A stretch of 34,333 nucleotides of DNA from a virus: positions 1-34,333 of IMG/VR virus record IMGVR_UViG_3300046665_000345; one strand, given 5' to 3'. Positions 10,614-29,352 of the stretch are shown here, piece by piece. Position 1 is the first letter of the stretch; each line of letters starts with the position of its first letter. Under the pieces are notes generated by a model that saw only the letters and a program-made list of their open reading frames with translations, did no database searches and was not told where the DNA came from. The position numbers and the translations under genes were made by a program.

Positions 10614-10645
10614 GTACACGTACCCGTGGCCCCCACTCCTACGAT
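10614..10645 (+). promoter_or_regulatory. Late promoter P1 (GTACACGTAC, 16 bp, TACGAT)
   Basis: GTACACGTAC (10614-10623), 16 bases, then TACGAT (10640-10645), directly after the terminase stop. It would drive the GNAT-portal-decoration unit. The same decamer and spacing recur at three other sites. Confidence 0.72.
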
Positions 10646-10669
10646 GCTCGTCCATAGGAGGGGGTGCCC

Positions 10670-11110
10670 ATGCTCGTCATACGTGAAGTTCAAGCCGCCG
10701 AATACCTCGGCAAGATCCAGCCGCTGCTGGCTGAAAACTGGGCCGAAACCGGCTTCGATTTCGACCTGTGCCCGGATGGCCAGATGATGCAGCGGCTGCA
10801 GGACGCCGACCTGCTGTTCGTCCTGGCCGCCTTCGACGACGGCGAACTGGTCGGCTACTCGTCCGCGCTGGTGTCCCCTCACACCTATAACCCCGCCGTC
10901 ATCTGCTGCAACAGCGACGCGCTGTTCGTGCGCCGCGCATGGCGCCCGCGTGGCGTCGGCGCCCGCCTGATCGTCGAGACCGAGCGCGTGGCCAAAGAGA
11001 AGGGCGCGTCGCGCATGCTCTGGCACACCCGCGCGGGCACGCCGCTGGCCGCCGCACTTGAACGTCGGGGTTATGAACCCGCCGATGTCATTGTCATGAA
11101 GGAAATCTAA
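10670..11110 (+). CDS. GNAT-family acetyltransferase-like protein
   Basis: This 146-residue protein has the GNAT fold pattern: an N-terminal REVQAAEY strand-helix, a central LVGYSSALV strand, motif A with RPRGVGARLI (about 92-101, the R-x-x-G-x-G/A acetyl-CoA loop) and a C-terminal AALERRGYEPAD helix-strand. GNATs transfer an acetyl group from acetyl-CoA to an amine. The gene sits between terminase and portal in a late unit, so the target could be a virion or host protein. The ribosome site GGAGGGGG precedes the ATG at 10670; a GTG at 10664 is an alternative start. Confidence 0.85.
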   Translation: MLVIREVQAAEYLGKIQPLLAENWAETGFDFDLCPDGQMMQRLQDADLLFVLAAFDDGELVGYSSALVSPHTYNPAVICCNSDALFVRRAWRPRGVGARLIVETERVAKEKGASRMLWHTRAGTPLAAALERRGYEPADVIVMKEI

Positions 11111-11113
11111 TCC

Positions 11114-11434
11114 ATGGGTATCGAAACCGGAACCGCCTTGCTTATCGCATCAGCCATTGGCGCAGGCACCGCTGCATACACCGCCAACAAGCAGGAAAAA
11201 GCGCAGGAAGCTGCAACCGAGCAGGCCACCAAGAACGCGAAGGCGACAGCCAAGGCGGCGGAAGAGGCCAGCAACAAGGCCAATAAGAAAGCCCCCGACA
11301 GTGGCGCGCTGCTGTCCGCGAACATCGCCGGCGGCAAGTCGGGCCAAGCCAGCACCATGCTGACGGGTGCCACCGGCATCGACCCGAGCGTGCTCCAACT
11401 TGGCAAGACCACGCTGCTGGGCGGGGGATCCTGA
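11114..11434 (+). CDS. Unknown virion-region protein with hydrophobic N-terminus
   Basis: A 106-residue protein with an N-terminal hydrophobic Ala/Gly segment (about 5-24), then a long Ala/Lys/Glu-rich helix (about 25-62) and a Gly/Ser-rich end. It looks like a small internal or connector-associated protein, comparable in style to the 183-aa internal protein further on. The stop overlaps the portal start (TGATG). No specific family is recognised. Confidence 0.7.
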   Translation: MGIETGTALLIASAIGAGTAAYTANKQEKAQEAATEQATKNAKATAKAAEEASNKANKKAPDSGALLSANIAGGKSGQASTMLTGATGIDPSVLQLGKTTLLGGGS

Positions 11435-13101
11435 TGGCGCCGCCGAACAACCGCAACCAGATCCTGATGCGCTGGGGCACGCTCAAGCGCGAGCGCGCCA
11501 GCTGGTTCGCGCACTGGCAGGACATCAGCCGCAACTTGCTGCCCCGTCAGGGGCGCTTCTTCATCGAGGACCGCAACAAGGGTGACAAGCGCCACAACGC
11601 AATCTACGACTCGACCGGCACGCGCGCGCTGCGCGTCCTGTCCGCCGGCATGATGGGCGGCGCCACCTCGCCGGCCCGGCCGTGGTTCCGCCTGAAGGTG
11701 AAGGACACCGAGGCCATGAAATCGCAGGCGGTGAAGCAGTGGCTGGACGACGTCACCGGCCTGATCCTGGCAGTCTTCCAGAAGTCGAACACCTACCGCT
11801 CGCTGCACAGCATCTACAACGAGATGGGCGGCTTCGGTACCGGCGCCGACCTGATCGTGCCCGACTATCGCGACGTGCTGCACCACACCCCGCTGACGAC
11901 CGGCGAATACTGCATCGCGACCGACTGGCGCGGCGAGGTGTGCACGATCTATCGCGAGTTCCAGACCACGGTGGGCGGCATGGTCAAGGAATTCGGGAAG
12001 GAAAAGGTCAGCAACACGGTGCGCTCGCTGTACGACCGTGGCAACCTCGATTCGTGGGTGACCGTCATCCATGCGATCGAGCCGCGCGAGGACCGCGACG
12101 TCACGAAGCTGGATTCGCTGAACATGGCGTGGTCCAGCACCTACTTCGAATCAGGCGTCAACGACAGCAAGTACCTGCGCGAATCCGGCTTCAAGCGCTT
12201 CCCCGCGATCTGCCCGCGCTGGGAGGTGGCCGGCGGCGACATCTACGGCAACGGCCCCGGCATGGAAGCGCTCGGCGACATCCGCCAGCTGCAGCACCAG
12301 AACCTGCGCAAGGGGCAGGCGATCGACTACCAGACGAAGCCACCGGTGCAGGTGCCCATCAGCATGAAGGGCCAGCCGATGGACATGCTGCCGGGCGGGA
12401 TCAGCTACTACGACCCGGCCACCGGCGGCGGCAAGGGCGCCATCCTGCCGGCGTGGCAGGTCAACTTGAACTTGGACCACCTGCGCCTCGACATGATCGA
12501 CGTGCGCGACCGCATCAAGGAATCGTTCTACTACGACCTGTTCCTGATGCTGTCGAACCTGGACAAGTCGGGCATGACTGCCACCGAGGTGGCCGAGCGT
12601 CACGAAGAAAAGCTGCTGATGCTGGGCCCGGTCATCGAGCGCCTGGACAACGAGGCGCTGAACCCGCTGGTGGACAACGCCTTCGACATGCTGCTGCAGG
12701 CGGGCGCTCTGCCGCCGCCCCCACCCGAGCTGCACGGCCAGCAGCTGGACGTCGAGTACACGTCGGTGCTGGCGCAGGCCCAGCGCGCTGTGGCCACGAA
12801 CGGCGTCGACCGCTTCGTCGGCAACCTCGGCCAGATCGCCACCTTTAAGCCGGATGTGCTCGACAAGTTCGATTCCGACAAGTGGGTCGACGCCTACAGC
12901 GACATGCTCGGCGTGCCGCCCAGCCTGATCACGCCATCGGACAAGGTAGCCATCATCCGCCAGCAGCGCGCACAGGCGCAGGCGCAGGCCGCCCAGCTCC
13001 AGGCTGCGGAGCAGGCGTCGGTCGCCGCGCGCAACCTCGGCGCCACCCCCACCGACGGAGGCAATGCAGCTTCCGACGTCATGAACATGTTCGCCCAGTA
13101 A
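11434..13101 (+). CDS. Portal / head-to-tail connecting protein
   Basis: The 555-residue product forms the dodecameric portal through which DNA enters and leaves the capsid. It is in the podovirus head-to-tail connector family: N-terminal RWGTLKRERASWFAHWQDISRNLLP, then DSTGTRALRVLSAGMMGGATSPARPWF, a central beta region, and a helical ALGDIRQLQHQNLRKGQAID segment. The C-terminus (about 500-555) is Gln/Ala-rich and coiled. It starts within the stop of the preceding gene. Length is typical for the family. Confidence 0.92.
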   Translation: MAPPNNRNQILMRWGTLKRERASWFAHWQDISRNLLPRQGRFFIEDRNKGDKRHNAIYDSTGTRALRVLSAGMMGGATSPARPWFRLKVKDTEAMKSQAVKQWLDDVTGLILAVFQKSNTYRSLHSIYNEMGGFGTGADLIVPDYRDVLHHTPLTTGEYCIATDWRGEVCTIYREFQTTVGGMVKEFGKEKVSNTVRSLYDRGNLDSWVTVIHAIEPREDRDVTKLDSLNMAWSSTYFESGVNDSKYLRESGFKRFPAICPRWEVAGGDIYGNGPGMEALGDIRQLQHQNLRKGQAIDYQTKPPVQVPISMKGQPMDMLPGGISYYDPATGGGKGAILPAWQVNLNLDHLRLDMIDVRDRIKESFYYDLFLMLSNLDKSGMTATEVAERHEEKLLMLGPVIERLDNEALNPLVDNAFDMLLQAGALPPPPPELHGQQLDVEYTSVLAQAQRAVATNGVDRFVGNLGQIATFKPDVLDKFDSDKWVDAYSDMLGVPPSLITPSDKVAIIRQQRAQAQAQAAQLQAAEQASVAARNLGATPTDGGNAASDVMNMFAQ

Positions 13102-13126
13102 CCCACCCACCAGAAGGAACCCACCC

Positions 13127-13462
13127 GTGCCAAACCTCGCAATGACCGCCGAAGAGGCGAAGAAAGAATACGGCTACGAGCCCAGCGACACCGACAACCT
13201 GCCGAAGTACCCGTACGGGCTGTCGCTGTACCTGGACGACGACACGCTGAAGAAGCTGGGCATCACCGACCTGCCGAAGGTGGGCACCTCGATGCCGGCC
13301 ACGATCACCGTCACGGTGACCGGCACCAGCCAGCGTGCCACGCAGTCCGGCAAGGAAGGCGAGAACATGCGCACCTGCGTCGATCTGCAGATCACGGACA
13401 TGGACATCACCATGCCCACGAAGTCGGCCGCAGAAGTGCTGTACGGCAGCCCCAAGTCCTAA
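13127..13462 (+). CDS. Capsid staple/decoration-like protein
   Basis: A 111-residue protein with a GTG start at 13127 supported by AAGGAA eight bases upstream. It has a YPYGLSLYLDDDTLKKLGI segment and a beta-rich middle ending in a CVDLQITDMDI strand, a pattern seen in small podovirus capsid-stapling or decoration proteins. The C-terminus ends SAAEVLYGSPKS, a motif also found at the end of the scaffold protein. It lies between portal and capsid genes. The staple role is inferred from similarity by eye and position. Confidence 0.68.
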   Translation: MPNLAMTAEEAKKEYGYEPSDTDNLPKYPYGLSLYLDDDTLKKLGITDLPKVGTSMPATITVTVTGTSQRATQSGKEGENMRTCVDLQITDMDITMPTKSAAEVLYGSPKS

Positions 13463-13469
13463 TCCCCTC

Positions 13470-13501
13470 GTACACGTCCCACCCACGGCCGCGCCTACAG
13501 T
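13470..13501 (+). promoter_or_regulatory. Late promoter P2 (GTACACGTCC, 16 bp, TACAGT)
   Basis: GTACACGTCC (13470-13479), one change from the other decamers, then 16 bases and TACAGT (13496-13501). It precedes the fibre-like gene. Confidence 0.66.
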
Positions 13502-13555
13502 GGCGGCCGTATCGCTGTCTTCCCCCTGCCGCACACACCGCAAAGAGACAACTTC

Positions 13556-14434
13556 ATGAGCAAATACAAAATCCTGAACACCCCGGCGCTGCACGACCCC
13601 GTGAGCGGCGCGCTGGTCGGCTTTCTCGGCGCCGACGGCAAGGAATACTTGATCGGCGCGGCGCCCGGTGGCGTCGACGGGAACCCGGGAACCACGACCG
13701 GCATCACCAGCCTGACCGTCCAGGCCGCAGGATCGGCCGCCGGCACCACGCTGACCAACCCGCTGATTCAGGCCACCACGACCGTGAACAACTTCACGCA
13801 GTCGTCCATCCAGAACTTGAGCACCGGCGCCAGCGCATCGTCGGATCACATCGCCTACCCGAACAACAACACGAACGACCTGACCGGCTTTGCCGACATG
13901 GGCATGACGGGTTCGAACTTCGCGGATGCGGCGTACACCGTCACCATCGGGAACGAGGCCTATGTGTTCGCTTCCGCACCCAGCGGATCGGGCAAGTCCG
14001 GTTCGCTGGTGCTGGCCACCGACTCGTCGGGCATCAACAACAACATCGATTTCTACACCAACGGCTTCAACAAGGCGAAGACCGCGTATTCCGCGCGCAT
14101 CCTGGGCACCAACGGGCTGTTCCAGATCGCTGAAGGCCTAGCGCTGTCCGGCAAGAGCATCGTGAACAACGGCGCGACGGCAACATACACCGTGGCTGCG
14201 AAGAAGAACTACGCCTACCTCACCACCACTGCGGCATCCATCGCATTCACACTGCCGGCCGGCGCTGCCGCGATCGACGGCCTGCTGGTCACCGTCGTGA
14301 CGGATACCGCCGTCGCCGCGCTGACGTGGGCCAGCGCCGGCGCCACGTTCGTCGGCGCGCCGACGGCATCGTCGGCCAACACGCCCATCCGGATGATCTA
14401 CGACCACGCCAGCCTGAAGTGGTACCCGGCCTGA
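13556..14434 (+). CDS. Fibre-like structural protein in head module
   Basis: A 292-residue Thr/Ser/Ala/Gly-rich protein of beta-structure type. The N-terminal 40 residues look like an anchoring domain (ILNTPALHDPVSGALVGFLG), followed by a collagen-free GNPGTTTGI linker, repeat-like beta segments and a C-terminal domain (about 220-292) with LPAGAAAIDGLLVTVV and IYDHASLKWYPA, reminiscent of phage tail-fibre heads. Its position between decoration and scaffold genes suggests a head or neck fibre and not the main tailspike, which is present elsewhere. It has its own late promoter. Confidence 0.65.
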   Translation: MSKYKILNTPALHDPVSGALVGFLGADGKEYLIGAAPGGVDGNPGTTTGITSLTVQAAGSAAGTTLTNPLIQATTTVNNFTQSSIQNLSTGASASSDHIAYPNNNTNDLTGFADMGMTGSNFADAAYTVTIGNEAYVFASAPSGSGKSGSLVLATDSSGINNNIDFYTNGFNKAKTAYSARILGTNGLFQIAEGLALSGKSIVNNGATATYTVAAKKNYAYLTTTAASIAFTLPAGAAAIDGLLVTVVTDTAVAALTWASAGATFVGAPTASSANTPIRMIYDHASLKWYPA

Positions 14435-14742
14435 TGGTTGACTTCGACCCGCTCACCCCCGAGCTGCAGGACGCCCAGCGCGAGGCCGAAGCCAAGCGCC
14501 AGGCGCTCGCGAAGAAGCAGGAAGCCGCTGACTTCCAGTGGCTGATGAACGACCCGCGCGGCCGGCGCTTCGTGTGGCGCCAGCTCGCCGCGGCCGGCGT
14601 CTTCCTGTCCAGTTTTGACCCCGCCGCCATGACTATGGCTTTCAACGAAGGACGCCGTTCCGAAGGCCTGCGCCTGCTGGCGCTGGTAATGGAGCAGTGC
14701 CCCGATCTCTACGCAACCATGATGAAGGAGCAATCGCAATGA
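14434..14742 (+). CDS. Bbp19-like phage protein
   Basis: A 102-residue protein matching the Bbp19-type domain: DFQWLMNDPRGRRFVWRQL, then an AAGVFLSS segment, MAFNEGRRSEGLRLLALV and a C-terminal PDLYATMMKE. The family is found just upstream of the scaffold in BPP-1-like phages; its exact role is not established. It overlaps the preceding stop (TGATG) and its own stop overlaps the next start (ATGA), so translation is coupled on both sides. Confidence 0.82.
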   Translation: MVDFDPLTPELQDAQREAEAKRQALAKKQEAADFQWLMNDPRGRRFVWRQLAAAGVFLSSFDPAAMTMAFNEGRRSEGLRLLALVMEQCPDLYATMMKEQSQ

Positions 14743-15479
14743 CCCTGATGACCGAAGCCGCAGCCGCTGCCCCTGCCACTGCAGCACCCGCAGCCCCTGC
14801 CGCCGCCGCACCGGCCGCCGGCGGTGCACCAGCAGCGCCAGAAGCTGGCCAGACCGATGCATCGGCCGCCGCTGGTGCCCCGGCCGCTGGCGCCCCTGCT
14901 GCCGGTGATGCTGGTGCTGCAGGTGGCGAGACCGGCCAGCCTGGCGAGAAGACCGACGACCAGAAAGCCGCCGACGAAGCCGCGGCGAAAGCAGCCGAGG
15001 AAGCCGCGAAGGCCGCCGGCGCCCCCGAGAAGTACGAGCCCTTCAAGGCGCCCGAAGGCGCCGCCCTGGATGCCGAGGTGATCACGCAGTTCGAACAGGC
15101 GGCGCGCGAACTGAACCTGCCGCAGGACAAGGCGCAGCAGCTGATCGACAAGATGGCGCCAGTCATCGCGCAGCAGCAGATCCAGCAGGTCGAGAAGTTC
15201 CGGACCGAGTGGCACGCGCAGTCCACGGCCGACAAGGAATTCGGCGGCGACAAGCTGGCCGAGAACTTGGGCTATGCGAACAAGGCGCTGACCGCGTTCG
15301 CGAGCGATGACCTCAAGACCTTCCTAAAAGACAGCGCGCTGGGCAACCACCCCGAGTTCGTGCGCTTCATGGTCCGCGCCGGCAAGGCCATGAGCGAAGA
15401 CAAGATCGTCATTGGCGGCGCCACCACCGCGCCGCGAACGGCCGCCGAAGTCCTGTACGGCGGCGGCGCGAAGAAGTAA
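14739..15479 (+). CDS. Capsid scaffolding protein
   Basis: This 246-residue protein is encoded immediately before the capsid gene, as scaffolds are. The N-terminal 65 residues are an Ala/Pro/Gly low-complexity tail, followed by acidic Lys/Ala helices, a PEKYEPFKAPEGAALDAEV segment, a QFEQAARELNLPQDKAQQLIDK helix and a C-terminal helical region. It ends RTAAEVLYGGGAKK, a likely capsid-binding tail. Scaffold proteins guide assembly of the shell and leave before or during packaging. The assignment is from composition, motif pattern and position. Confidence 0.83.
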   Translation: MTLMTEAAAAAPATAAPAAPAAAAPAAGGAPAAPEAGQTDASAAAGAPAAGAPAAGDAGAAGGETGQPGEKTDDQKAADEAAAKAAEEAAKAAGAPEKYEPFKAPEGAALDAEVITQFEQAARELNLPQDKAQQLIDKMAPVIAQQQIQQVEKFRTEWHAQSTADKEFGGDKLAENLGYANKALTAFASDDLKTFLKDSALGNHPEFVRFMVRAGKAMSEDKIVIGGATTAPRTAAEVLYGGGAKK

Positions 15480-15500
15480 TCCCATCCCCTGGCCACGGCG

Positions 15501-15532
15501 GTACACGTACCGCCGCGCGCCTTCTCTACTCT
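15501..15532 (+). promoter_or_regulatory. Late promoter P3 (GTACACGTAC, 16 bp, TACTCT)
   Basis: GTACACGTAC (15501-15510), 16 bases, then TACTCT (15527-15532). The leader of about 50 bases ends with a CCGGAG ribosome site for the major capsid gene. Confidence 0.72.
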
Positions 15533-15588
15533 TCAGGCTCACCGAACAGTAGATCGGTTTCATCCCTAAATTACCGGAGTATCCCAAT

Positions 15589-16608
15589 ATGGCACTTCTC
15601 GCAGCTGGCGCCCTCACCCTCGCCGACTGGGCAAAGCGTCTCGATCCCGACGGCCAGGTGCCGCAGGTGGCCGAGCTCCTGTCGCAGACGAACGAGATTC
15701 TGGAAGATGCAGTTTTCAAGGAAGGCAACCTGCCGACCGGTCATCGCGTCACCATCCGTACCGGCCTGCCGCAGGTCTTCTATCGCATGATCAACCAGGG
15801 CGTCCCGACGTCCAAGTCGACCAGCACGCAGGTGGACGAAGCATGCGGCATCCTCGAAGCCCGCTCGCACATCGACGTCGAGCTGGTCAAGCTGAACGGC
15901 AACGAAGCCGCGTTCCGCCTGTCAGAAGATGAAGCGTTCATCGAGGCGATGAACCAGACCATGGCCGGCGCCATGTTCTACGGTAACCCGGGCACGGACC
16001 CGCGCCAGTTCCTCGGCCTGCAAACCCGCTACAGCTCGCTGAGCGCAGGCAACGGCCAGAACATCCTGGACGCCGGCGGCACGGGTTCGAACAACACGTC
16101 GATCTACCTGGTGGTCTGGGGCGAGAACACCGTGTTCTGCCCTTTCCCGAAAGGTTCGAAAGCCGGCCTGCAGCACCAGGACCTGGGCGAAGAGTCGGTG
16201 CCGGACGCAAACGGCAACTTCTTCCAGGCTGTCCGCGCGCTGTACCAGTGGAAGAACGGTCTGGTGGTCAAGGACTGGCGCTACGTGGTCCGCATCTGCA
16301 ATATCAACGTGTCGGACCTGACCGGCCAGACGGCGACGCAGGCCGCCGCCGCCGCCACCGCGATCATCAACCTGATGATCCGCGCCATGGACCGCCCGCC
16401 CAACCTGGCGATGGGCCGCCCGGTGTTCTACGCGAATCGCACCGTGTACTCGATGCTGCGCGTGGCCGCGCTCAACAAATCGAGTAACGCGCTGTCGATC
16501 GAGAGCGCCACCAACCAGTTCGGCAACGCGTACAAGATGACCACGTTCATGGGCATCCCGCTTCGCAAGGTCGACCAGCTGCTGAACACCGAGTCGCGCG
16601 TCGTCTAA
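15589..16608 (+). CDS. Major capsid protein (BPP-1 Bbp17-like)
   Basis: A 339-residue HK97-fold shell protein of the BPP-1 type. Diagnostic segments are the N-terminal LTLADWAKRLDPDGQVPQVAELL, then NEILEDAVFKEGNLPTGHRVTIRTGLP, a central FYGNPGTDPRQFLGLQTRY and a C-terminal MGRPVFYANRTVYSML followed by MGIPLRKVDQLLNTE. It has its own promoter and a separate leader, fitting the need for high expression. There is no sign of an N-terminal cleaved scaffold; a separate scaffold gene precedes it. Confidence 0.94.
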   Translation: MALLAAGALTLADWAKRLDPDGQVPQVAELLSQTNEILEDAVFKEGNLPTGHRVTIRTGLPQVFYRMINQGVPTSKSTSTQVDEACGILEARSHIDVELVKLNGNEAAFRLSEDEAFIEAMNQTMAGAMFYGNPGTDPRQFLGLQTRYSSLSAGNGQNILDAGGTGSNNTSIYLVVWGENTVFCPFPKGSKAGLQHQDLGEESVPDANGNFFQAVRALYQWKNGLVVKDWRYVVRICNINVSDLTGQTATQAAAAATAIINLMIRAMDRPPNLAMGRPVFYANRTVYSMLRVAALNKSSNALSIESATNQFGNAYKMTTFMGIPLRKVDQLLNTESRVV

Positions 16609-16635
16609 GCCGGCTAACAGAATAAGGAACGAATC

Positions 16636-17124
16636 ATGATCCTCGATGCAGCAATGCTTCTCTCCGGTTCGATCAGCGCTTCGGGCGTCCTGACCGGCCA
16701 ATCCGTGAACGGTGCGGGTTCCATCCTGTCGTCCAACACGATCGACATGGCACCGTTGACCACTGGCGGCAATCAAGCCACCGACACCGGCGTCGGCGAA
16801 GAGTTGTATATCGACTTCTCGGTGCTGACCGCGCCGACCGTCGGTACCAGCGTGCGCTTCCAGCTGATCCAGGCCGATGACGCCGCGCTGACGTCGAACG
16901 TGCAGGTGATCAGCCAGACCGATGACATCCCGATCGCCAACCTGCCGGCCGGCACCATCGTGCCGTTGCACTGGGATCCGGCAGCGCCGTACCCGCCGAA
17001 GCGCTACGTGGGCGCGCGCTACGTGAACGTGGGCGCCATCGCTACCTTCTCGGTGGCCGCCGCCGTCACGAAGAACGTGCAGACCCGCCAGACCAGCCTG
17101 AAGTCGGGCTACACCGTCAGCTAA
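16636..17124 (+). CDS. Bbp16-like capsid cement protein
   Basis: The 162-residue product follows the capsid gene and matches the Bbp16 cement family: an N-terminal ILDAAMLLSGS start, a central ELYIDFSVLTAPT strand and a conserved PLHWDPAAPYPPKRYVGARY segment. Such proteins bind the outside of the mature shell and stabilise it. An AAGGAA-type site precedes the ATG. A G+C-rich hairpin lies just downstream. Confidence 0.88.
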   Translation: MILDAAMLLSGSISASGVLTGQSVNGAGSILSSNTIDMAPLTTGGNQATDTGVGEELYIDFSVLTAPTVGTSVRFQLIQADDAALTSNVQVISQTDDIPIANLPAGTIVPLHWDPAAPYPPKRYVGARYVNVGAIATFSVAAAVTKNVQTRQTSLKSGYTVS

Positions 17125-17138
17125 TCCATCAACCTGAT

Positions 17139-17156
17139 GCGGGGCTTCGGCCCCGC
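17139..17156 (+). other. UUCG-loop hairpin without T-tract
   Basis: GCGGGGC (17139-17145), a TTCG loop and GCCCCGC (17150-17156), a very stable RNA hairpin. It lacks a T-tract, so it may protect the 3' end of the capsid/cement message or weaken read-through into the next gene. Confidence 0.7.
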
Positions 17157-17175
17157 TCTCCCGTAGGAGAAAAGC

Positions 17176-17724
17176 ATGTCCAAAACCACCCGCCAGCCGG
17201 TCCAGTACCGCGTAAAGGAAAAGTCGCTGATCGGCAACCGCATTTACGAAGCCGGCGAGACCGCCGAATACGACGGCCTGCCGGCCGACAACCTGGAGCC
17301 GCTGTGCGACGAGGGCCGCGCCCGCGCCGCCGAGTACGAAGAATCGAACAAGCAGCGCGTGGCCACGATGATCGCCGCCAACAAGGAAAGCGCCGTCGGC
17401 GACCCGACCGCGTTCGCCGCCGCCTTCGCCAAGCAACTGGCCGAAGAGCGCGCCGAGCACCAGGCCCAGATGGAAAAGCAGCAGGAAGTGATGGCCCGCA
17501 TGGTGGAGATGCAACAGCAGTCCGCCCTGCAGCTGGCTGACGCGGCCAAGAACATGGCCCTGCTGGCCGCCGCGCTGACGCAGGCACAGACCGCACCGGC
17601 AGCTGCACCGGACGCCCCGGCCGTTCCGCAGGACGCTGTCACCGGCGATGCAGCAGCGCAGGCCACCGGCGACGAGAAGCCGGCCGAGGAAGTCGCGCCG
17701 GTCAAGCGCACCAAGGGCGGTTAA
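17176..17724 (+). CDS. Coiled-coil structural-region protein, 182 aa
   Basis: A GTAGGAGAAAAGC ribosome region precedes the ATG. Residues 1-48 form a small folded domain (YRVKEKSLIGNRIYEAGETAEYDG), as in other phage head-completion proteins. Residues 55-140 are a long Ala/Glu/Gln helix with MEKQQEVMARMVEMQQQ, a strong coiled coil, and the end is an Ala/Pro/Glu-rich tail. It could be a head-tail joining or internal protein. No exact family is recognised. It ends just before a strong terminator. Confidence 0.68.
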   Translation: MSKTTRQPVQYRVKEKSLIGNRIYEAGETAEYDGLPADNLEPLCDEGRARAAEYEESNKQRVATMIAANKESAVGDPTAFAAAFAKQLAEERAEHQAQMEKQQEVMARMVEMQQQSALQLADAAKNMALLAAALTQAQTAPAAAPDAPAVPQDAVTGDAAAQATGDEKPAEEVAPVKRTKGG

Positions 17725-17757
17725 TCCGGCACTTTTGCCAGCACCCCGACCATGAAT

Positions 17758-17786
17758 AAGGGCGATCTTTCGGGGTCGCCCTTTTT
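17758..17786 (+). terminator. Terminator between head and tail genes
   Basis: AAGGGCGA (17758-17765), a ten-base loop and TCGCCCTT (17776-17783), then a five-T run. It closes the capsid unit. No late-promoter motif stands between it and the tail gene, so tail expression may rely on partial read-through. Confidence 0.85.
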
Positions 17787-17803
17787 CCATTCTGGAGAAT
17801 CGT

Positions 17804-18469
17804 ATGTCGTCCGAAGTAGAAATCTGCAATCTCGCGCTGGCCCACTTGGGCGACAGCGCCACTGTCGCAAGCATCGACCCACCCGAAGGATCTGCCCAAG
17901 CCGAGCACTGCTCCCGCTGGTATCCGATCGCGCGCGACTCGCTGCTGGAGCTCTCCGACTGGAACTTCGCCACTACGCGAGCCCTGCTGGCCGAGCTGGT
18001 GAACCCCTTCCCGCAATGGGCGCACGCCTACGCCTACCCTACCGACTGCCTGAAAGTGCTGGGCATCCTGGCATCCGATGCCACGGGCGACGTCGCCGGC
18101 ACGTTCCCGCAGGACGGCTTCTATTACGGCGCCGTGCCGCAGCTGTACACCGCGTACACCCCGCAGGACTACACCACCGAGACCGACGCCACCACCGGGA
18201 ACATGGTCATCCTGACCAACCAGGCCGACGCGCTGGTGCGTTACACGCGCAAGGTCACCGATACCAGCAAGTTTTCCCCGCTGTTCCGCGACGCGCTCGC
18301 CTTCTACCTGGCGGGCTATCTGGCCGGGCCGGTCCTGAAAGGTGAAACCGGCATCAAGGTCGGGCTGGCGATGAAGCAGGAAGCCATGGGCCTGATCAGC
18401 GCGGCCGCAGTGTCCGCTGCCAACCAGTCCGGCCGGCAGCAGGTGCAAGCCTACCCGTGGAGCCGCTGA
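17804..18469 (+). CDS. Tail tubular protein A-like adaptor
   Basis: A 221-residue protein of the podovirus adaptor/tail tubular A type, starting with the characteristic EICNLALAHLGD and a C-x-x-WYP-x-ARD-x-LLE segment, then a LSDWNFAT helix and a central beta region. Such proteins ring the portal and join it to the nozzle. The last 40 residues are helical. It is followed by the nozzle gene with one intervening base. Confidence 0.86.
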   Translation: MSSEVEICNLALAHLGDSATVASIDPPEGSAQAEHCSRWYPIARDSLLELSDWNFATTRALLAELVNPFPQWAHAYAYPTDCLKVLGILASDATGDVAGTFPQDGFYYGAVPQLYTAYTPQDYTTETDATTGNMVILTNQADALVRYTRKVTDTSKFSPLFRDALAFYLAGYLAGPVLKGETGIKVGLAMKQEAMGLISAAAVSAANQSGRQQVQAYPWSR

Positions 18470-18470
18470 C

Positions 18471-20534: not shown

Positions 20535-20544
20535 GGGGAAGAAC

Positions 20545-21096: not shown

Positions 21097-21099
21097 TCC

Positions 21100-23295
21100 A
21101 TGCCCACCGTCCCAACATACAACGGCACCGGCGTCGCGCCTTCTTCCGCGCCCGGTGGCGGCTTCGCCGCGCCACAAGCTGGGAACGCAGCGCCGCAGCA
21201 GTTGCAGCAACTGGGCGACGCCACGGTACGCGCAGGCGCCGTCGGCACCAACATCGTCAGCGACATCCAGATGATGGCCAACCAGCTGCCTGTCGACGCC
21301 AGCATAAACACGCTTCGCGAGTTCCAGCAGGACCGTACGTACAACACGCAGGACGGTTTCCTTGCGAAGCGGGGCCGCGCGGCGCTCGAACCGGACCCGC
21401 TAGGCCGATCGCTTCAACAGCAATACGGCGAAGAGATGCAGGACAAAATCAACGAGTTGTCCAGCAATCTCGCCAACGATGCGCAACGTCGTGTGTTCCT
21501 GCAGCAGGCAAGCCAGCTCGTTACCCACTTCAACGGCCAGGTCGAAAGCCACATGTTGCAGGAATACCGTTCTTACGGCTTGGAGACCCAGCAAGGTACG
21601 ATTAAATTAGCCGCCGACGCGGCAAAGCGGAACTGGTCCAATCCGGATGCGATCGGGGAACAGGTAAAAAGTGCGCAGGCGGCTGTGTGGAAGGCCGGCC
21701 AGATCGCCGGGGAGCCAGGAAACCTTACGGCAGCCAAGATCAAAGAAACGACGAGCGCTATCCACACGGGAGTAATTGACGCGGCGCTGCAGGAGAACAA
21801 CCCCGAATACGCGCTGGGATACATCGATCGCTATAAGGACCAGATGACGGCCGACGACCTGCTGAAGGTGCGCGGCGTCATCAACAAGGACGTCTACCAG
21901 CGCCTGGCCGACGGCATCGCCACCAACGTCGTCACCGGCGCCCGCAAGCAGGTCATGCCGTCGGACCTGTCGCGCATGGCCGAGATCACCGCCAGCAGCG
22001 AAAGCGGCGGCCGCGAGCGCGACTCGGCCGGCAACCTGATCACCTCGTCGAAGGGCGCGCAAGGTTCGATGCAGGTGATGCCGGGCACGCGGGTCGATCC
22101 CGGCTATGGCGTCACGCCTGCGAAGGACGACAGCGACGCCGAGCGCACGCGCGTCGGGCGCGACTACCTGCAGGCCTTGGTCAAGAACTACGCGGGCGAC
22201 CCAGCCAAGGCATGGGGCGCGTACAACTGGGGGCCGAAGAACGTGGATGCCGCGATCAAGGAACACGGCGCCGACTGGCTCAGCTTCGCGCCGAAGGAAA
22301 CGCAGGACTACGTGGCCAAGAACATGGCCGCGCTGGGCACAGGCGGCGGCGTGCGCAAGCCGACCCTGCAGGACGTGCACGACCAGGTGCGCGCGCAGGT
22401 CGAAGCGAAGTTCGGAGCCACGCCGCCGGCGGGCGTGCTGAAGCTGGCGCTGGCCAGCGCCACCCAGCAGTTCGAGGATCTCAACAAGGCCATCAAGGCG
22501 GAAGAAGAGGCGAACGTCACCGTGGCCTTCCAGGGGCTGATGCAGAACGGCGGGCGCTTCTCGGCACTGCCTTACGCGGTGAGGTCGAAGATTCCAGCCG
22601 ACAAGGTGGATAACGTGCTCAGCTTCGCCGCGCGCATCGCCAAGGGTGACGACATCACGAATCCGGCCGTGTACCAGCGGCTGAGCGATCCGGCCATGCT
22701 GCGCCGGCTGAGCGACGACCAGTTCTTCCATCTGCGCGCCGAGCTGTCCGAATCCGACTTCAAGCACTTCAGTGCGCAGCGCGCCGCGGCCATGGACAAG
22801 AGCACCAACAAGACCGAGGAGATCAACATGTCGGCGATGAACAACGCGCTGCGCGACCGCTTCCAGTCGCTGGGCATCGACCCGACGCCGAAGGATGGGA
22901 CCGACGAGGCCGCGCGCGTGGGCACCATCAAGAAATTCGTAACGGACACGATGCTGCAGCACCAGAAGACCACCGGCAAGCAGATGACCGACGCCGAGGT
23001 CGAAAAGCACATCGATTCACTGTTCGCAAAATCGGTCACGTTCCGCACCTCGGTGCTGGGCATCGACACCGGCACCACGAGCCAGCGCCTGCTGAGCATG
23101 CAGGCAGGCGACATCCCGGGCGCAACGCGCGACGCGCTGGTCGCGGACTTCAAGGCCGCCGGCATCGACAAGCCAACGGAATCCGATCTGCTGGGCGCCT
23201 ACCTGCGCCTGAAGCAGATTCCGCAGGTTACGCCGCGCCAGCAGGATAGCGCCCGCCGCAAGACCGGGAACATCACCATCGCGAAAGGAAACTAA
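21100..23295 (+). CDS. Internal virion protein with lytic transglycosylase
   Basis: A 731-residue ejection protein. Residues about 290-410 form an SLT lysozyme-like domain: catalytic Glu301 in ITASSESGG, then KGAQGSMQVMPGT and GAYNWGP, which are diagnostic. It should cut peptidoglycan during DNA entry. The N-terminal third is Gln/Ala-rich and helical, and the C-terminal half (about 430-731) is helical and acidic. In T7 the lytic domain is at the start of gp16; here it sits in the middle of the second internal protein. Confidence 0.9.
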   Translation: MPTVPTYNGTGVAPSSAPGGGFAAPQAGNAAPQQLQQLGDATVRAGAVGTNIVSDIQMMANQLPVDASINTLREFQQDRTYNTQDGFLAKRGRAALEPDPLGRSLQQQYGEEMQDKINELSSNLANDAQRRVFLQQASQLVTHFNGQVESHMLQEYRSYGLETQQGTIKLAADAAKRNWSNPDAIGEQVKSAQAAVWKAGQIAGEPGNLTAAKIKETTSAIHTGVIDAALQENNPEYALGYIDRYKDQMTADDLLKVRGVINKDVYQRLADGIATNVVTGARKQVMPSDLSRMAEITASSESGGRERDSAGNLITSSKGAQGSMQVMPGTRVDPGYGVTPAKDDSDAERTRVGRDYLQALVKNYAGDPAKAWGAYNWGPKNVDAAIKEHGADWLSFAPKETQDYVAKNMAALGTGGGVRKPTLQDVHDQVRAQVEAKFGATPPAGVLKLALASATQQFEDLNKAIKAEEEANVTVAFQGLMQNGGRFSALPYAVRSKIPADKVDNVLSFAARIAKGDDITNPAVYQRLSDPAMLRRLSDDQFFHLRAELSESDFKHFSAQRAAAMDKSTNKTEEINMSAMNNALRDRFQSLGIDPTPKDGTDEAARVGTIKKFVTDTMLQHQKTTGKQMTDAEVEKHIDSLFAKSVTFRTSVLGIDTGTTSQRLLSMQAGDIPGATRDALVADFKAAGIDKPTESDLLGAYLRLKQIPQVTPRQQDSARRKTGNITIAKGN

Positions 23296-26200
23296 ATGCC
23301 TGACGATCTGCAGCAAGACACCGCCGGCGCCGTCGCCGCCTACCTGGGCCAGCAGCAGGAACCGGCGCGCGCCGCGCAGGCATCGATGTCGTTGGCCGTC
23401 GATACCAATCCGGATTTCGAAGCCGAGCTGCGCCGCGTCAGCGCCCGCACCGGTGTGCCGCTGGAATCAGCGCGCGCGTATCCGGAAGACGTGAAACGCC
23501 AGGCCGCCGTGGCTGAGCACGACTATGCCGACTTGGCCGCGCGCTTCCCGACCACGACGAAGTTTCTGGCGGATCCGGATAATGCGCGGCTGGCGCACGA
23601 CGACGTGCAAAACCTGTCCAGCACCGAAGCGACCGTCGGCCCGATCGTCGGGCCCAAGCCGTCATTCTGGAACGTGGCGAGCGGCCTGCTGAAGTCGCTG
23701 CCGGTTGGCGCCGACATGGCGCGCCAAGGCATTCGCATGCAGCTCGCCGACCTGTTCGGCTTCAAGGCTGTGGGCGATGATGCCCGCAGCAAGTACGGCC
23801 AGCTTTCGTTCGAACAGCAGATTGAAACCCCCGCGTTCCAGAGCAGCACCGCGCAGGCGGTCTACGGCGGCGCTACCAGCACCGTGCGCGCCGTGCCCGG
23901 CCTGCTCGCATCGCTGGCCACCCGCAGCCCGACGCCAATGCTGGCCACGATCGGGCTGCAGACCGAGGCGGACGCCTACGGCAAGTATCGTTCGCGCGGC
24001 GCGACGCCTGGGCAAGCGCTGCTGGGCGGCGCGGCCGAAGGCGCCGTCGAGGTCGGCACCGAGCTGCTGCCCATGTCGTTCCTCGTGAACAACCTGGGCA
24101 AAACCGGCGCCGGCCACTTCCTGACCGGCCTGCTGGCGCGCGAGGTGCCCGGCGAGCAGATCGCCACGCTGGCGCAGGACGCGATCGACACCGCGATCGC
24201 CAACCCCGATAAGACGTGGGCGCAGTACGCGGCCGAGCGGCCGGAAGCCGCCTATCAGACGCTGGTGGCCACGGTTACACAAGCGGCGCTGATGGAAAGT
24301 GGGAACGCCGGGTTGGCGCGCGTGCACGGCCGCACGCAGGAAGCGCAGCGCGCCGTCGACGTCGGCGCGGCGCTGGGCCAACTGAACGACCTGGCCGCGG
24401 CGTCGAAGCTGCGCGAGCGCGACGCCAGTACGGCGCAAGCTTTCTTCCAGTCCCTGATGCAGGAGGGCCGCGACACCGTTTGGATTACCCCGAAGGCGCT
24501 GGCCGAATCGGGCATGCTTGAGCACGTGGCGCAGGCGTTGCCGGGCGTGGCCGCGCAGCTCAATCAGGCGGCGACGACGAACGCCGATATCCGGATCCCG
24601 GTCGCCGACCTGATGGCGAACATGGCCGGCCCCGAGTTGGCGCAGTCGATCATCCCTCACCTGTCCGACGAGCCGGGTGGATTCACCCAAACCACGGCCG
24701 CCGAATACCTACAGAGCGGCGCCGGGAAGGAACTCGCCGACGAGGTTGCCCGCGCGCTGACCACCAAGCAGGCGGACGACGCGTTCACGGCATCGCGCCA
24801 GAAGGTCGAGGCGGGCTTCCTCGATCAGCTAAACAGAATCGACCGGTTCGCGCCCGAGGTGAACCAGGCGTACGCGGCCATGATCAGCAACTTCTTTGCC
24901 GTGCAGGCCGCACGGCTGGGCGTCACCCCTGAAGAAATAGCGCAGCGGTACCCGCTGGAGATTCAGGCAGAACGGCTCGTAGGCCCCCGCACTCTCGACC
25001 AGGGCGCCACCGGCCTGGAGACGGTGCGACAAGCGTGGGATGCTGCCGGCATCGATCACTTCATCAGCGAGCGCAAAGGCGTCATCACCTTGGCCAAGAT
25101 CGTCGTGCCAGCGAACGAGCGCGAGGACGGCAGGGGTACTGCGGCGCTGCAGCAGCTCGTCGCGTATGCGGACCAGACCGGCCAGAAGATTGCCTTGACG
25201 CCGTCCGCCGACTTCGGCGGCAGCAAAAAGCGGCTGGTCGAGTTCTACAAACGCTTCGGCTTCGTCGAGAACAAGGGCAAAAACGCCGACCACGAGATTG
25301 GTGAATCAATGTACCGGCCGGCCAGCACCGTGCTCAACCAGCCGCGCGACACCCGGACCGAGCCGGATGCTCCGCGCGGATCGATCGCGCTGGCCGAGGA
25401 CATCACCGAAGCACCGAGCATCATCACCCTGCTGCGCGGCGCCGACCTGTCCACGTTCCTGCACGAATCCGGCCACTTCTTCCTGGAAGTGATGAGCGAT
25501 ATTTCGAACCGTCCGGACGCCCCGCAGGAAGTGAAGGACGACATGGCCAAGACGCTCGCGTGGTTCGGCGTGCCCGACCTGGCCACCTGGAACACCATGG
25601 AAATGGAAGAGAAGCGCCCCCTGCATGAGCAGTTCGCCCGGGGCTTCGAAGCGTACCTGTTCGAGGGCAGCGCGCCGGTGGCTGAGCTGCGCGGCGTGTT
25701 CGCGCGCTTCCGCAGCTGGCTGGTCAACGTGTACCGCACCCTGACCGCCCTGGACGTCGAGCTCACGCCCGAGGTGCGGGGCGTGTTCGGCCGCATGCTG
25801 GCCAGCACCGAGGCGATCAGCCAGGCCGAGCACGAAGCTGGGCTGGCCGGCATGTTCGGCACCAAGCCGGAGTTCATGACCGAAGAGGAATGGACCGCCT
25901 ACCGGACGCTGAGCATCGGCGCCACCGAGAAGGCTACACGCGACCTCGAGGCGCGCGCCCTGCACGACATGAAGTGGCTATCGAACGCCAAGGCCAAGGA
26001 ACTAGCCCGCCTGCAGCGCGACGCCGCGGCGAAGCGCAAGGCGATCCGGGACGAGGTCGGCGCGGAAGTGATGGCCAAGCCCATCAACGTGGCGCGCCGG
26101 TTCCTGACGCACGGCGAACTGCCTGACGCCGACCGCAACCGCACCCAGCGCCGCATCCTGGAAGACGCAGGCCTGAACGGTACGAAGCTGAACCTGGACG

Positions 26201-29200
26201 CACTGAAGGAAATGTATGGCGAGGGCTCGGCCGCCCCGTGGCGCTATCTGCCGACGGGCAAGCGCGGTCTGGTCACCGCCGAAGGCGGTCTGATGCCGGA
26301 CGTGGTGGCCGAGCTGTTCGGCTTCGACTCGGGCGACCAGCTGGTGCGCGAGCTGCTGGCGGCCGAGAAACCGGCCGACGAGATCTCGCGCCTGACCGAC
26401 CAGCGCATGTTGGAACGCCATGGCGACCTGGTGGACGAACAGGCCCTGGCGCGCGCCGTCGACGAAGCGGTATATTCGAACGCGCATGCGCGCTTCATCG
26501 CCACCGAGATGAACGCGCTGGCCAAGGCCGCCGGCAAGCCTGCCGTGCTGGCCAAGGCCGCCAAGATGTACGCCGAGCAGATCGTCGCTCGCACGCCGGT
26601 GAACCAATTGCGCCCCGATCAGTTCACCCGCGCGGCGGCGCGCGCCGGCAAAGCCGCCGATGCCGCTTTCAAGAAAGGCGACATCCAAACGGCCGCCGCT
26701 GAAAAGCAGACCCAGCTGATCAACACTTATGCAGCGAAGGCGGCGCTGGACGCGCGCAGCGACGTCGAAAAGATCATGGACCGCTTCGGCGCCATCACGC
26801 GCGGCAGCAACGAGAAGGTGTCGAAAACCCGCGACCTGGATGTGGTGATGGCCACGCGCGCGATCCTCGCCGAATTCGGGATTGGCACGCGCGGGAAAAA
26901 GGCGTCCGAGTACCTGGCATCGGTCGAGGCCTATGACCCCGGGATGGCTGCCGTACTGCGCGAGCGCATCGACGCCAGCACCGAGAACGCGAAGCCCTAC
27001 CAGGAACTGACCATCGAGCAAATGCGCGGTCTGCGCGACGAAATCGAATCGATGTGGTATCTGGCACGGCGCTCGCGCCAGATGGAAGTCGACGGCGACC
27101 TGATGGACCGACAGGACATTCAGGATGCGCTACGCGCGCGACTCGAGGAAATCGGTGTTCCGGACACGGTGCCGGGCGACGGCCGCGCGATCACGCCGGG
27201 AGAAGTCAACCTGTCGAAGCTGCAGTCGCTGCGCGCCGCACTGCGCCGCGTCGAAGCCTGGGCCGATGCGAAGGACGGCGCCGGCACGAAGATGGGCCCA
27301 TTCCGCCGCTTCATCTGGAACACGATCAAAGACCCGGCCGACGCCTACCGCGTCGACAAGGCCAAGTACCTGAAGAAACTGCGCGACCTGCTCGCGCCGA
27401 TCGCGCCCACGCTCAAGCAGGTGAAGATCGACGCGCCGGAGCTGGGCTACACGTTCGGGTTCGACAAGGGCGGTATGGGCAAGGTCGAACTGCTGCACGC
27501 GATCCTACACACCGGCAACGCCGGCAACAAGAAAAAGCTGCTGCTGGGCCGGAACTGGGCCGACGTGCTACCGAACGGCGAAATGGACACCAGCCGCTGG
27601 GATGCGTTCGTCGACCGCATGATCAACCAGGGCGTGCTCACCAAGGCCGACTTCGACTTCGCGCAAGGGGTTTGGGATCTGCTGGAAGAGATGAAGCCGC
27701 TGGCGCAGAAGGCCCACCGCGAGGCCTTCGGCCGCTACTTCGACGAGGTGACCGCCGACGCCTTCGACACCCCCTTCGGCAAGTACCGCGGCGGCTACGT
27801 GCCGGCGATCGCGGATTCGCGCATCGTGGCCGATGCCAAGACCCGCAGCATCATGGAAGAAGAGAACGCCACGTTGATGAACGCGCTGCCCAGCACCACC
27901 AAGGGCTTCACGAAAGCGCGCGTCGAATATAACCGCCCGCTGCTGCTGGACCTGCGCACGCTGGCCCAGCACATCGACAAGGTGCTGCTTTTCGCGCACC
28001 TGGAAATGCCGGTGCGCGACGTCCGCCGGATCCTCGGGCACAGCTCGGTGGCCACGCCGCTGCATCGCATCGACCCGGCCGCATACGACGGGCTGCTGAC
28101 CCCGTGGTTGAACCGCGCCGCGCGCCAGCAGGTTGAAACGCAGGTGTCCGGATCGAATGGCCTGATGCGCTTTTTCTCGGTCGTGCGCTCGCGCGCCGGC
28201 ATGGCGGCCATGTTCGCGAACATCTCCAACACGGCCCAGCAGATCACGGGCTTCTCCATCGCCGCGCTGCGCGTGAAGCCGTCGCACCTGGCCAGCGCGG
28301 CCGTCGACTTCATCCGCTCGCCGCGCGCGATGGCGGACGCCGTGGCCGAGGCATCGCCCTATATGGCCAACCGGATGGAAAACGAGGTGGGCGCGATGAC
28401 CGACGCCATCAACGAAATCCTGTTGAACCCGAGTGTGTACCAGAAGGCCGTGGCGTGGACCCAGAAGCACACCTACTTCCTGCAGTCGGCGGTCGACAAT
28501 GTGATGGGCCCGATAATCTGGCACGGCGCCTACAATCAGGCGATCGAGGAAGCGCCGGCCGGCATGAGCGAAGACGAGGTGAAGACGTACGCGCGGCGCC
28601 TCGCCGACTCGGCGGTGCGCGAGACGCAGGGCAGCACCCTGCCCGAGGACATCAGCCGCATCGAGACCGGCAACGCGTTCGTGCGGATGTTCACCCAGTT
28701 CGCCGGCTACTTCAACATGCAGGCCAACATCCTGGGCACCGAGTTCGCCAAGGTGGCGCAGGATACCGGCCTGCGCAAGGGCGCCGGACGCGGTCTGTAC
28801 ATCCTGCTGTTCGGCTTCTTCGCACCGGCCTGGGTGGCGCAGGCGATCGCGCTGGCGTTCCGTGGCGGTCCGGACGACGACGACAAGGACGGCAGCTACC
28901 TGGACGACTGGATCGCGCAGACATTCGGGTGGGGCACACTGCGCGCGGGCACGGCGCTGGTGCCGGTGGCCGGGCAGACGATCAACGCGCTGGCGAACAG
29001 CTTCAACGGCAAGCCGTACGACGACCGGATCAGCACCAGCCCGGCCATCAGCATGATCGAAAGCGCGGTCAGCGTGCCGGCCGACGTGTACAAGCTGGCC
29101 ACCGGTACCGGATCGAAGACGAAGACCGTGCGCGACGTGGCCAGCCTCATTTCGCTGACGGTCGGCGTGCCGGCCAGCGCCGCAGCCCGTCCGGCTGCCT

Positions 29201-29304
29201 ACCTGACCGACGTGGCAACCGGCAAAGCCCGTCCGACTGGCCCAGTAGACGTCACGCGCGGGGTGGTCACGGGGGCAGCCAGTCCGGCCAGCAAGGGCCG
29301 ATAG
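23296..29304 (+). CDS. Giant polyvalent ejection protein with zincin and GNAT-like domains
   Basis: A 2002-residue protein, the last of the ejection set. Around residues 575-665 is a GNAT-like domain with ITLAKIVVPANEREDGRGTA and FYKRFGFVENKG. Around 715-800 is a zinc metallopeptidase core: H723-E-S-G-H727, with a likely third ligand Glu785 in HEQFARGFEAYLFEG. The middle (about 860-1300) is long helices with Lys/Ala-rich stretches. The C-terminal region has a hydrophobic span (about 1834-1856) and a Gly/Ala-rich end. It probably enters the host with the DNA, as T7 gp16 does. The enzymatic claims are motif-based. The domains may modify or cleave host factors or other virion proteins. Confidence 0.87.
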   Translation: MPDDLQQDTAGAVAAYLGQQQEPARAAQASMSLAVDTNPDFEAELRRVSARTGVPLESARAYPEDVKRQAAVAEHDYADLAARFPTTTKFLADPDNARLAHDDVQNLSSTEATVGPIVGPKPSFWNVASGLLKSLPVGADMARQGIRMQLADLFGFKAVGDDARSKYGQLSFEQQIETPAFQSSTAQAVYGGATSTVRAVPGLLASLATRSPTPMLATIGLQTEADAYGKYRSRGATPGQALLGGAAEGAVEVGTELLPMSFLVNNLGKTGAGHFLTGLLAREVPGEQIATLAQDAIDTAIANPDKTWAQYAAERPEAAYQTLVATVTQAALMESGNAGLARVHGRTQEAQRAVDVGAALGQLNDLAAASKLRERDASTAQAFFQSLMQEGRDTVWITPKALAESGMLEHVAQALPGVAAQLNQAATTNADIRIPVADLMANMAGPELAQSIIPHLSDEPGGFTQTTAAEYLQSGAGKELADEVARALTTKQADDAFTASRQKVEAGFLDQLNRIDRFAPEVNQAYAAMISNFFAVQAARLGVTPEEIAQRYPLEIQAERLVGPRTLDQGATGLETVRQAWDAAGIDHFISERKGVITLAKIVVPANEREDGRGTAALQQLVAYADQTGQKIALTPSADFGGSKKRLVEFYKRFGFVENKGKNADHEIGESMYRPASTVLNQPRDTRTEPDAPRGSIALAEDITEAPSIITLLRGADLSTFLHESGHFFLEVMSDISNRPDAPQEVKDDMAKTLAWFGVPDLATWNTMEMEEKRPLHEQFARGFEAYLFEGSAPVAELRGVFARFRSWLVNVYRTLTALDVELTPEVRGVFGRMLASTEAISQAEHEAGLAGMFGTKPEFMTEEEWTAYRTLSIGATEKATRDLEARALHDMKWLSNAKAKELARLQRDAAAKRKAIRDEVGAEVMAKPINVARRFLTHGELPDADRNRTQRRILEDAGLNGTKLNLDALKEMYGEGSAAPWRYLPTGKRGLVTAEGGLMPDVVAELFGFDSGDQLVRELLAAEKPADEISRLTDQRMLERHGDLVDEQALARAVDEAVYSNAHARFIATEMNALAKAAGKPAVLAKAAKMYAEQIVARTPVNQLRPDQFTRAAARAGKAADAAFKKGDIQTAAAEKQTQLINTYAAKAALDARSDVEKIMDRFGAITRGSNEKVSKTRDLDVVMATRAILAEFGIGTRGKKASEYLASVEAYDPGMAAVLRERIDASTENAKPYQELTIEQMRGLRDEIESMWYLARRSRQMEVDGDLMDRQDIQDALRARLEEIGVPDTVPGDGRAITPGEVNLSKLQSLRAALRRVEAWADAKDGAGTKMGPFRRFIWNTIKDPADAYRVDKAKYLKKLRDLLAPIAPTLKQVKIDAPELGYTFGFDKGGMGKVELLHAILHTGNAGNKKKLLLGRNWADVLPNGEMDTSRWDAFVDRMINQGVLTKADFDFAQGVWDLLEEMKPLAQKAHREAFGRYFDEVTADAFDTPFGKYRGGYVPAIADSRIVADAKTRSIMEEENATLMNALPSTTKGFTKARVEYNRPLLLDLRTLAQHIDKVLLFAHLEMPVRDVRRILGHSSVATPLHRIDPAAYDGLLTPWLNRAARQQVETQVSGSNGLMRFFSVVRSRAGMAAMFANISNTAQQITGFSIAALRVKPSHLASAAVDFIRSPRAMADAVAEASPYMANRMENEVGAMTDAINEILLNPSVYQKAVAWTQKHTYFLQSAVDNVMGPIIWHGAYNQAIEEAPAGMSEDEVKTYARRLADSAVRETQGSTLPEDISRIETGNAFVRMFTQFAGYFNMQANILGTEFAKVAQDTGLRKGAGRGLYILLFGFFAPAWVAQAIALAFRGGPDDDDKDGSYLDDWIAQTFGWGTLRAGTALVPVAGQTINALANSFNGKPYDDRISTSPAISMIESAVSVPADVYKLATGTGSKTKTVRDVASLISLTVGVPASAAARPAAYLTDVATGKARPTGPVDVTRGVVTGAASPASKGR

Positions 29305-29306
29305 CC

Positions 29307-29338
29307 GTACACGTACCAGGGGCGCCACTGCTGAGAAT
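29307..29338 (+). promoter_or_regulatory. Late promoter P4 (GTACACGTAC, 16 bp, GAGAAT)
   Basis: GTACACGTAC (29307-29316), 16 bases, then GAGAAT (29333-29338), right after the giant ejection gene stop and in front of the tailspike gene. Confidence 0.68.
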
Positions 29339-29352
29339 GCAGCTTTCTCAGC
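29330..29352 (+). other. Hairpin across tailspike promoter and leader
   Basis: GCTGAGAA (29330-29337) pairs with TTCTCAGC (29345-29352) around a seven-base loop. It spans the -10-like box and ends beside the GGAG ribosome site of the tailspike. As DNA it is a symmetric element; as RNA only read-through transcripts would contain the whole stem. Confidence 0.55.

Follow-up and report, generated by a model that had tools for sequence, protein, structure and literature searches.

The stretch of viral DNA analysed here is 34,333 nucleotides long (IMG/VR record IMGVR_UViG_3300046665_000345, referred to below as the window). It carries four copies of a short motif, each lying just ahead of late genes. 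The question is whether these are promoters of a single regulon and, if so, which protein reads them. Its terminase, portal, protease, major head protein and tail families mark the window as an epsilon15/BPP-1-like podovirus. Massilia sp. PDC64 harbours a closely related prophage with a capsid protein 97% identical.

Four sites and their counterparts in relatives

The decamer GTACACGTMC occurs four times in the window, always on the plus strand, at 10614, 13470, 15501 and 29307 (chance expectation 0.05 copies; 0 of 100 shuffles reached four). Exactly 16 bp past each copy starts a hexamer resembling a -10 box. Site 1 (GTACACGTAC, 10614-10623, with TACGAT at 10640-10645) precedes the GNAT/portal unit, and its decamer lies 2-3 bp past the stop of terL, which ends at 10611. 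Site 2 (GTACACGTCC, 13470-13479, with TACAGT at 13496-13501) is of the Bbp19 type discussed below. Site 3 (GTACACGTAC, 15501-15510, with TACTCT at 15527-15532) precedes the major capsid gene (15589-16608). Site 4 (GTACACGTAC, 29307-29316, with GAGAAT at 29333-29338) precedes the tailspike gene (29367-31691), 2-3 bp past the stop of a 2002-aa ORF that ends at 29304. All four hexamers keep A at position 2 and T at position 6, the two most important bases of a sigma-70 -10 box.

The initial annotation had described four intergenic decamers on the plus strand, 16 bp from a -10-like box, and pattern search and shuffles confirm every part of this. It had noticed no other intergenic copy, which also holds: the only copies with one mismatch are at 6646 (minus strand), 13207 and 31625, all within ORFs, and none has a -10 at the 16-bp distance. 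A sigma-70 consensus scan found no promoter at sites 1-3, in agreement with the proposed lack of a normal -35 box. An Rfam scan returned nothing at the four sites. A terminator-like hairpin followed by TTTTT (9058-9074) lies immediately ahead of terL, past the early genes and before the first putative late promoter; terminator-like matches in this region are close to the chance number.

Relatives in the epsilon15/BPP-1 group of podoviruses, including Bordetella phage BPP-1, have three to four predicted promoters, and the genes that follow them are the same. The decamer of close relatives is GTATACGTNC, always at 16 bp, before the GNAT, Bbp19-like, capsid and tailspike genes, and a control with the reversed pattern gave 0 matches among relatives. 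Sites orthologous to 1 and 3 are present in relatives, the site 2 promoter is present family-wide, and site 4 has an orthologue in eight other phages. The site 1 hexamer is TACGAT, TAGGAT or TAGCAT in relatives. At the tailspike site it is GAGAAT in seven relatives and TACAAT at the same place in an eighth, which supports GAGAAT as a real -10. An exact search for the decamer in 80 relatives had suggested that the motif was absent from them, a reading that was dropped because allowing other bases revealed the variants described in the next section. Decamer, spacing and genes are all kept in relatives, where the initial annotation had named their loss as a finding that would speak against its proposal. 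It had also called the decamer near-palindromic, implying a dimer. In this respect it is not supported: the palindrome is not kept in relatives (GTATACGTAC, GTGCGCGTGA, GTGCCCGTGC), and the site is thus asymmetric with a fixed orientation.

In L006, L011, L048, L051 and L055 the protease gene extends at its 3' end into the capsid-site motif. The overlapped stretch encodes a conserved C-terminal peptide, and conservation of the site in these relatives could therefore be partly coding. A coding origin of the motif itself is ruled out, since the other sites are mostly intergenic and have the same form of decamer.

It is worth adding that two neighbouring head genes, 13127-13462 (Gp10-like coat protein family) and 14697-15479 (protease/scaffold), have near-identical C-terminal peptides, SAAEVLYGSPKS and RTAAEVLYGGGAKK, and that the versions of these genes in many relatives end ...LYPNQ. 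The peptide could be a docking or processing tag shared by the two proteins.

Decamer dialects and a candidate reader

Each phage has its own dialect of the decamer, GTACACGT in the window and GTATACGT, GTGCGCGT or GTGCCCGT elsewhere. Sites agree within a phage and differ between phages; both sites of L051/L052 are GTATTCGTTC, and those of L055 are GTTCACGTAC. A de novo search was run in which no decamer was supplied, only the requirement for similar 10-mers each followed by N16-TANNNT. The same genes in distant relatives and in named phages proved to have other dialects, including GTGCCCGTGC before bbp24 (GNAT), bbp19 and bbp9 of BPP-1, and four GTACCCGTAW sites in Limnohabitans phage DC33. 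Anchoring solely on the -10 and the start codon of the Bbp19-like gene recovered a decamer family GT-R-Y-N-C-G-T. In phiV10, epsilon15 and Tr60_Ab31 neither a homologue of the HTH protein described below nor a comparable set of sites was found. L149, an Asaia MAG with a capsid protein 49% identical, has two AATCGTCGAT-N16-TANNNT sites, each with an ATG after 7 nt; the layout is the same and the decamer unrelated, and there are two such sites only.

The loci are related to one another, and the dialect and spacing counts are to be read as non-independent trials: a phage's own dialect gave 41 further sites in 32 phages, and a foreign dialect with the 16-bp spacing gave 0 in 820 tests; in a larger set the own dialect was repeated in 85 of 99 loci, compared with 179 of 1980 for control 8-mers serving as pseudo-dialects; and, with anchored sites excluded, 106 of 195 dialect copies had TANNNT at a distance of precisely 16 bp, with 0-3 at each of 29 other distances. 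Dialect copies number 298 on the plus (coding) strand and 12 on the minus strand, and none of the 12 has a -10. The -10 begins with T in 75% of sites, only A at position 2 and T at position 6 having been required.

The most likely partner of the decamer sites, and the best activator candidate, is a small HTH protein of 109 aa encoded at 7114-7443 on the plus strand, a gene that the initial annotation had passed over, with a predicted recognition helix at about residues 73-80 and M78 as the putative specificity residue. Its gene directly precedes the terminase genes (terS, 7755-8222), and HMM homologues are present in 35 of 40 related contigs. The predicted structure is a three-helix HTH between two strands (pLDDT about 90). 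Pfam gives weak matches to HTH and sigma-70 region 4 families, and sequence and fold searches of the PDB gave generic HTH matches only, none of them significant (best E 0.19). The counterpart in BPP-1 is Bbp27, annotated as an 'endonuclease'. An HNH endonuclease identity was rejected, as Pfam finds no HNH domain and the model consists of the HTH and two strands only. PHROG endonuclease matches are confined to the HTH part, which suggests that the 'endonuclease' annotation of Bbp27 and its like is mistaken. The region 6985-7113, upstream of the HTH gene, contains TGCGNATNACGCAA-like repeats together with a conserved stretch, TAAAATTTCC, that is also found in relatives; these are possibly operators or the promoter of the candidate activator gene.

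Homologues of the HTH protein also occur in phages in which no dialect was found, such as the L178/L182/L185/L193 group. In L178, L179, L182, L185, L190-L193, L196, L197 and L200 the helix reads SKSTIRDII or SKSTVRDII and the Bbp19 site has no recognisable decamer; either these phages have another layout or the system has been lost.

Residue 78 of the HTH protein varies in step with base 5 of the decamer. The 63 distinct decamer/protein pairs with decamers beginning GT give 26/0/0/37 without exception, counts for which a Fisher value is no clean test because the residue classes were defined after part of the data had been viewed. Where base 5 is G, residue 78 is D, G, S or A (26/26); where it is another base, residue 78 is K, R, M, N, Y or H (37/37), with K or R only for C, and K/R/M/N/Y/H for A. 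The excess mutual information is 1.06 bits, compared with 0.42 for the next pair of positions, in a scan that used residues from about 58 onwards, the numbering to the left of this being unreliable. On the capsid tree, residue class and base 5 change 11 times each, and 6 of 6 well-supported independent pairs are concordant (p 0.03, the minimum reachable). BPP-1 and L223 have capsid proteins that are 98% identical and a 5-kb tail segment that is 97.6% identical, yet all located promoters differ (GTGCCCGT vs GTGCGCGT), and so does the helix (AKIC vs RDIC). We infer that residue 78, in the recognition helix, reads base 5. Since the tag varies in step with one amino acid, the proposed lock and key is directly testable. 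The earlier suggestion of an activator site that replaces the -35 box within a coordinated late regulon is thereby strengthened, the same decamer, 16-bp spacing and genes recurring in relatives together with a co-varying candidate activator gene.

Hairpins and start codons at the promoters

The -10 of site 4 lies within a hairpin with a 17-bp stem (29319-29362, plus strand), whose 3' arm holds the tailspike Shine-Dalgarno sequence GGAG (ATG 29367). Its predicted stability is -32.3 kcal/mol (z -5.1), and 0 of 200 shuffles were as stable. All nine phages have a strong hairpin at this site, from -17 to -35 kcal/mol, with differing stem sequences; covariation of the stem columns is modest because the stem register shifts. 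At site 1 an inverted repeat (10625-10672, plus strand) surrounds the -10 and the predicted start, and its 3' arm contains the GNAT Shine-Dalgarno sequence AGGAGG (ATG 10670). This fold is weaker (-24.1 kcal/mol, z -2.2), 6 of 200 shuffles folding as well, and hairpins at the GNAT site are similar in close relatives. Site 2 has an inverted repeat ACGGCCGC...GCGGCCGT around its -10 (13485-13510, plus strand). The fold in the window alone is not significant (z -0.6). Across nine phages the stem covaries with a score of 0.256; shuffles give 0.084, and 0 of 500 reached the observed score. The ATG of the Bbp19-like gene falls within the 3' arm of this repeat in close relatives. At the capsid site there is no such hairpin, and the single-site fold statistic shows no signal. 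No T-run follows the hairpins of the window. A promoter within a stem, with the Shine-Dalgarno sequence or AUG in the 3' arm, is thus found at the tailspike and GNAT sites and at the Bbp19 sites of relatives.

The Bbp19-like gene of the window is at 14434-14742 on the plus strand (Pfam PF25181 Phage_Bbp19, E 1.2e-15). At sites of the Bbp19 type the start codon is 6-7 nt past the -10 in 129 of 163 anchored loci, where the anchor permitted 5 to 10 nt. This places the predicted start of transcription at or beside the ATG, and implies that the Bbp19-like mRNA is leaderless in most relatives. The GNAT gene of BPP-1, bbp24, has the same layout, with its start codon just past the -10.

In the window a 292-aa ORF (13556-14434, plus strand) lies between site 2 and the Bbp19-like gene, and for this reason the mRNA of that gene would not be leaderless here. 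The ORF has no PHROG match, and its single partial match is to a protein annotated as tail fibre. Most relatives lack it at this position and have the promoter directly adjoining the Bbp19-like gene. The initial annotation assigned site 2 to a fibre-like gene, which is correct in so far as such an ORF follows in the window and does not extend to most relatives, where the promoter appears to serve the Bbp19-like gene directly. The junction of the ORF is common to L011, and L051/L052 have a different sequence there; the position may be a cargo slot under late control.

BPP-1 (L136/L222) has a further dialect copy at L222:3409, within the annotated 5' end of terS (bbp26), with AAAACT as -10 and an in-frame ATG 6 nt later; it is also present in L226 and L227. 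The start annotated for terS may be in error, or the gene may have a late start that is leaderless.

A proposed late regulon and its relation to known systems

On the basis of these observations, we consider it very likely that the four sites are late promoters of one regulon, in which the HTH protein binds the decamer and loads sigma-70 polymerase, the dialects co-evolve with it, and hairpins act as a switch. The sites, their spacing and conservation, the dialects, the co-variation and the potential for base pairing are observed in the sequences; from these we infer binding by the HTH protein, activation rather than repression, the start sites and a switch formed by the hairpins. The HTH protein, encoded early, would act late in infection or after induction. 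It would bind the decamer, an asymmetric element spanning about -38 to -29 (assuming a -10 box at -12 to -7), which would stand in for the -35 box. In the simplest model it would act as a single HTH reader, so that the decamer probably loads the host sigma-70 RNA polymerase; this would read the -10 box exactly 16 bp past the decamer and start transcription about 7 nt beyond it. At the GNAT and tailspike sites the transcript would start inside the hairpin and so lack the 5' arm. Transcripts born at the promoter would expose the Shine-Dalgarno sequence, and read-through transcripts would keep it buried. Decamer and HTH protein would co-evolve, with base 5 read by residue 78, giving each phage its private dialect.

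Other readings have to be weighed against this. The decamers might be operators at which the HTH protein represses the late promoters until induction. They do cover the -35 position, so that a protein bound there can obstruct polymerase, and small phage HTH proteins are often repressors. However, no site has a -35 hexamer able to work unaided and sites 1-3 have no sigma-70 promoter; the spacing of 16 bp is exact across dialects, as is typical of an activator or promoter element, while operators tolerate shifts; and a separate CI-like repressor is encoded by the prophage (2645-3382, minus strand). We therefore regard repression as improbable. It is about equally improbable that an alternative sigma factor or another phage protein reads the decamer, with the HTH protein merely linked. 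A decamer plus -10 does resemble a two-part sigma promoter, but the -10 is sigma-70-like, with its frequent T at position 1, residue 78 tracks base 5 without exception and with the highest mutual information, and a host sigma cannot set dialects that are private to each phage. As for the motif being a product of chance, a low-complexity repeat or a signal for packaging or methylation, four sites alone would be few; the strong depletion at other spacings and on the other strand, the conserved gene positions in many phages and the exclusivity of the dialects mean that the comparative data have already refuted it, and we give it practically no weight.

The hairpins call for separate consideration, because they might be transcription terminators or RNase processing sites that isolate operons, and not a translation switch. 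The tail-fibre site of BPP-1, CCCCTGGGGAAG..CTTCCCCAGGGG followed by TTTTT, is terminator-like with a promoter inside. Against this, the window hairpins are without a T-run, the 3' arms hold a Shine-Dalgarno sequence or start codon, and the paired arms vary in sequence between phages. A terminator or processing role is possible but on the whole unlikely, and the two effects could coexist.

If the sites are indeed late promoters read by the HTH protein, there are several consequences. The private dialects would stop co-resident phages from firing each other's late genes, and would supply promoter-activator pairs that are orthogonal by nature; DNA recognition would have a readable code of one residue, and leaderless late-gene mRNAs are predicted. 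BPP-1 is the model for diversity-generating retroelements, and late gene control in its group is undescribed in the literature searched, which contained no description of BPP-1 late promoters, of Bbp27 or of leaderless late genes in the group. Subscription literature lay outside the search, and the novelty of the regulon is therefore provisional. We think it reasonably probable that these proteins form a hitherto unknown family of small phage HTH activators, acting as plug-in -35 readers with many private dialects, a one-residue code for base 5, and leaderless starts or hairpins that bury the Shine-Dalgarno sequence.

In phage T4, MotA and AsiA act at many phage promoters in which an activator site takes the place of the -35, with a fixed interval to a sigma-70 -10. 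The feature common to Mu C-like and MotA-like regulons, a shared late-promoter element at fixed spacing from a sigma-70-like -10, is present here. Compared with sigma appropriation by MotA/AsiA (PMC6755090, PMC2988021), the protein family is different, and here the genes are late and not middle ones. The C protein of phage Mu is a dimer that binds upstream of or overlapping the -35 of four late promoters (PMC4461284). The likeness lies in one phage activator (a candidate here) for four scattered late promoters, host RNA polymerase, non-consensus elements, and a site beside or over the -35 region (PMC4461284). The decamer here differs in being asymmetric and in occupying the -35 position itself, with a constant spacing of 16 bp; hairpins and predicted leaderless starts come in addition, and the HTH protein has no match to Mor/C in Pfam or PHROGs at E 0.1. 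RinA/Ltr late regulators of Gram-positive phages act at one main promoter with several repeats further upstream, four in phi13 and TP901-1 (PMC13123087). They too are HTH proteins encoded just upstream of the packaging genes (PMC13123087), but here there is a single decamer at each of three to four promoters. RinA/Ltr families are absent from the Pfam and PHROG matches of the HTH protein, and no phage RNA polymerase gene of T7 or N4 type was found among the proteins examined.

Transcription of lambda cI from PRM starts at the A of the ATG and gives a leaderless mRNA. Here, by contrast, the leaderless start is predicted for a late head-region gene belonging to the Bbp19 family; the GNAT gene is a second predicted case in BPP-1. 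In T4, genes e, soc, 49 and I-TevI have a late promoter in the 5' arm of a hairpin, which buries the Shine-Dalgarno sequence of read-through transcripts and from which promoter-born transcripts escape; late transcripts of gene e thus avoid the structure that blocks the early ones (PMC3014915). By its anatomy, a promoter within a hairpin that buries the Shine-Dalgarno sequence, the arrangement described here resembles that of gene e, although T4 uses gp55 and a TATAAATA late promoter (PMC3014915).
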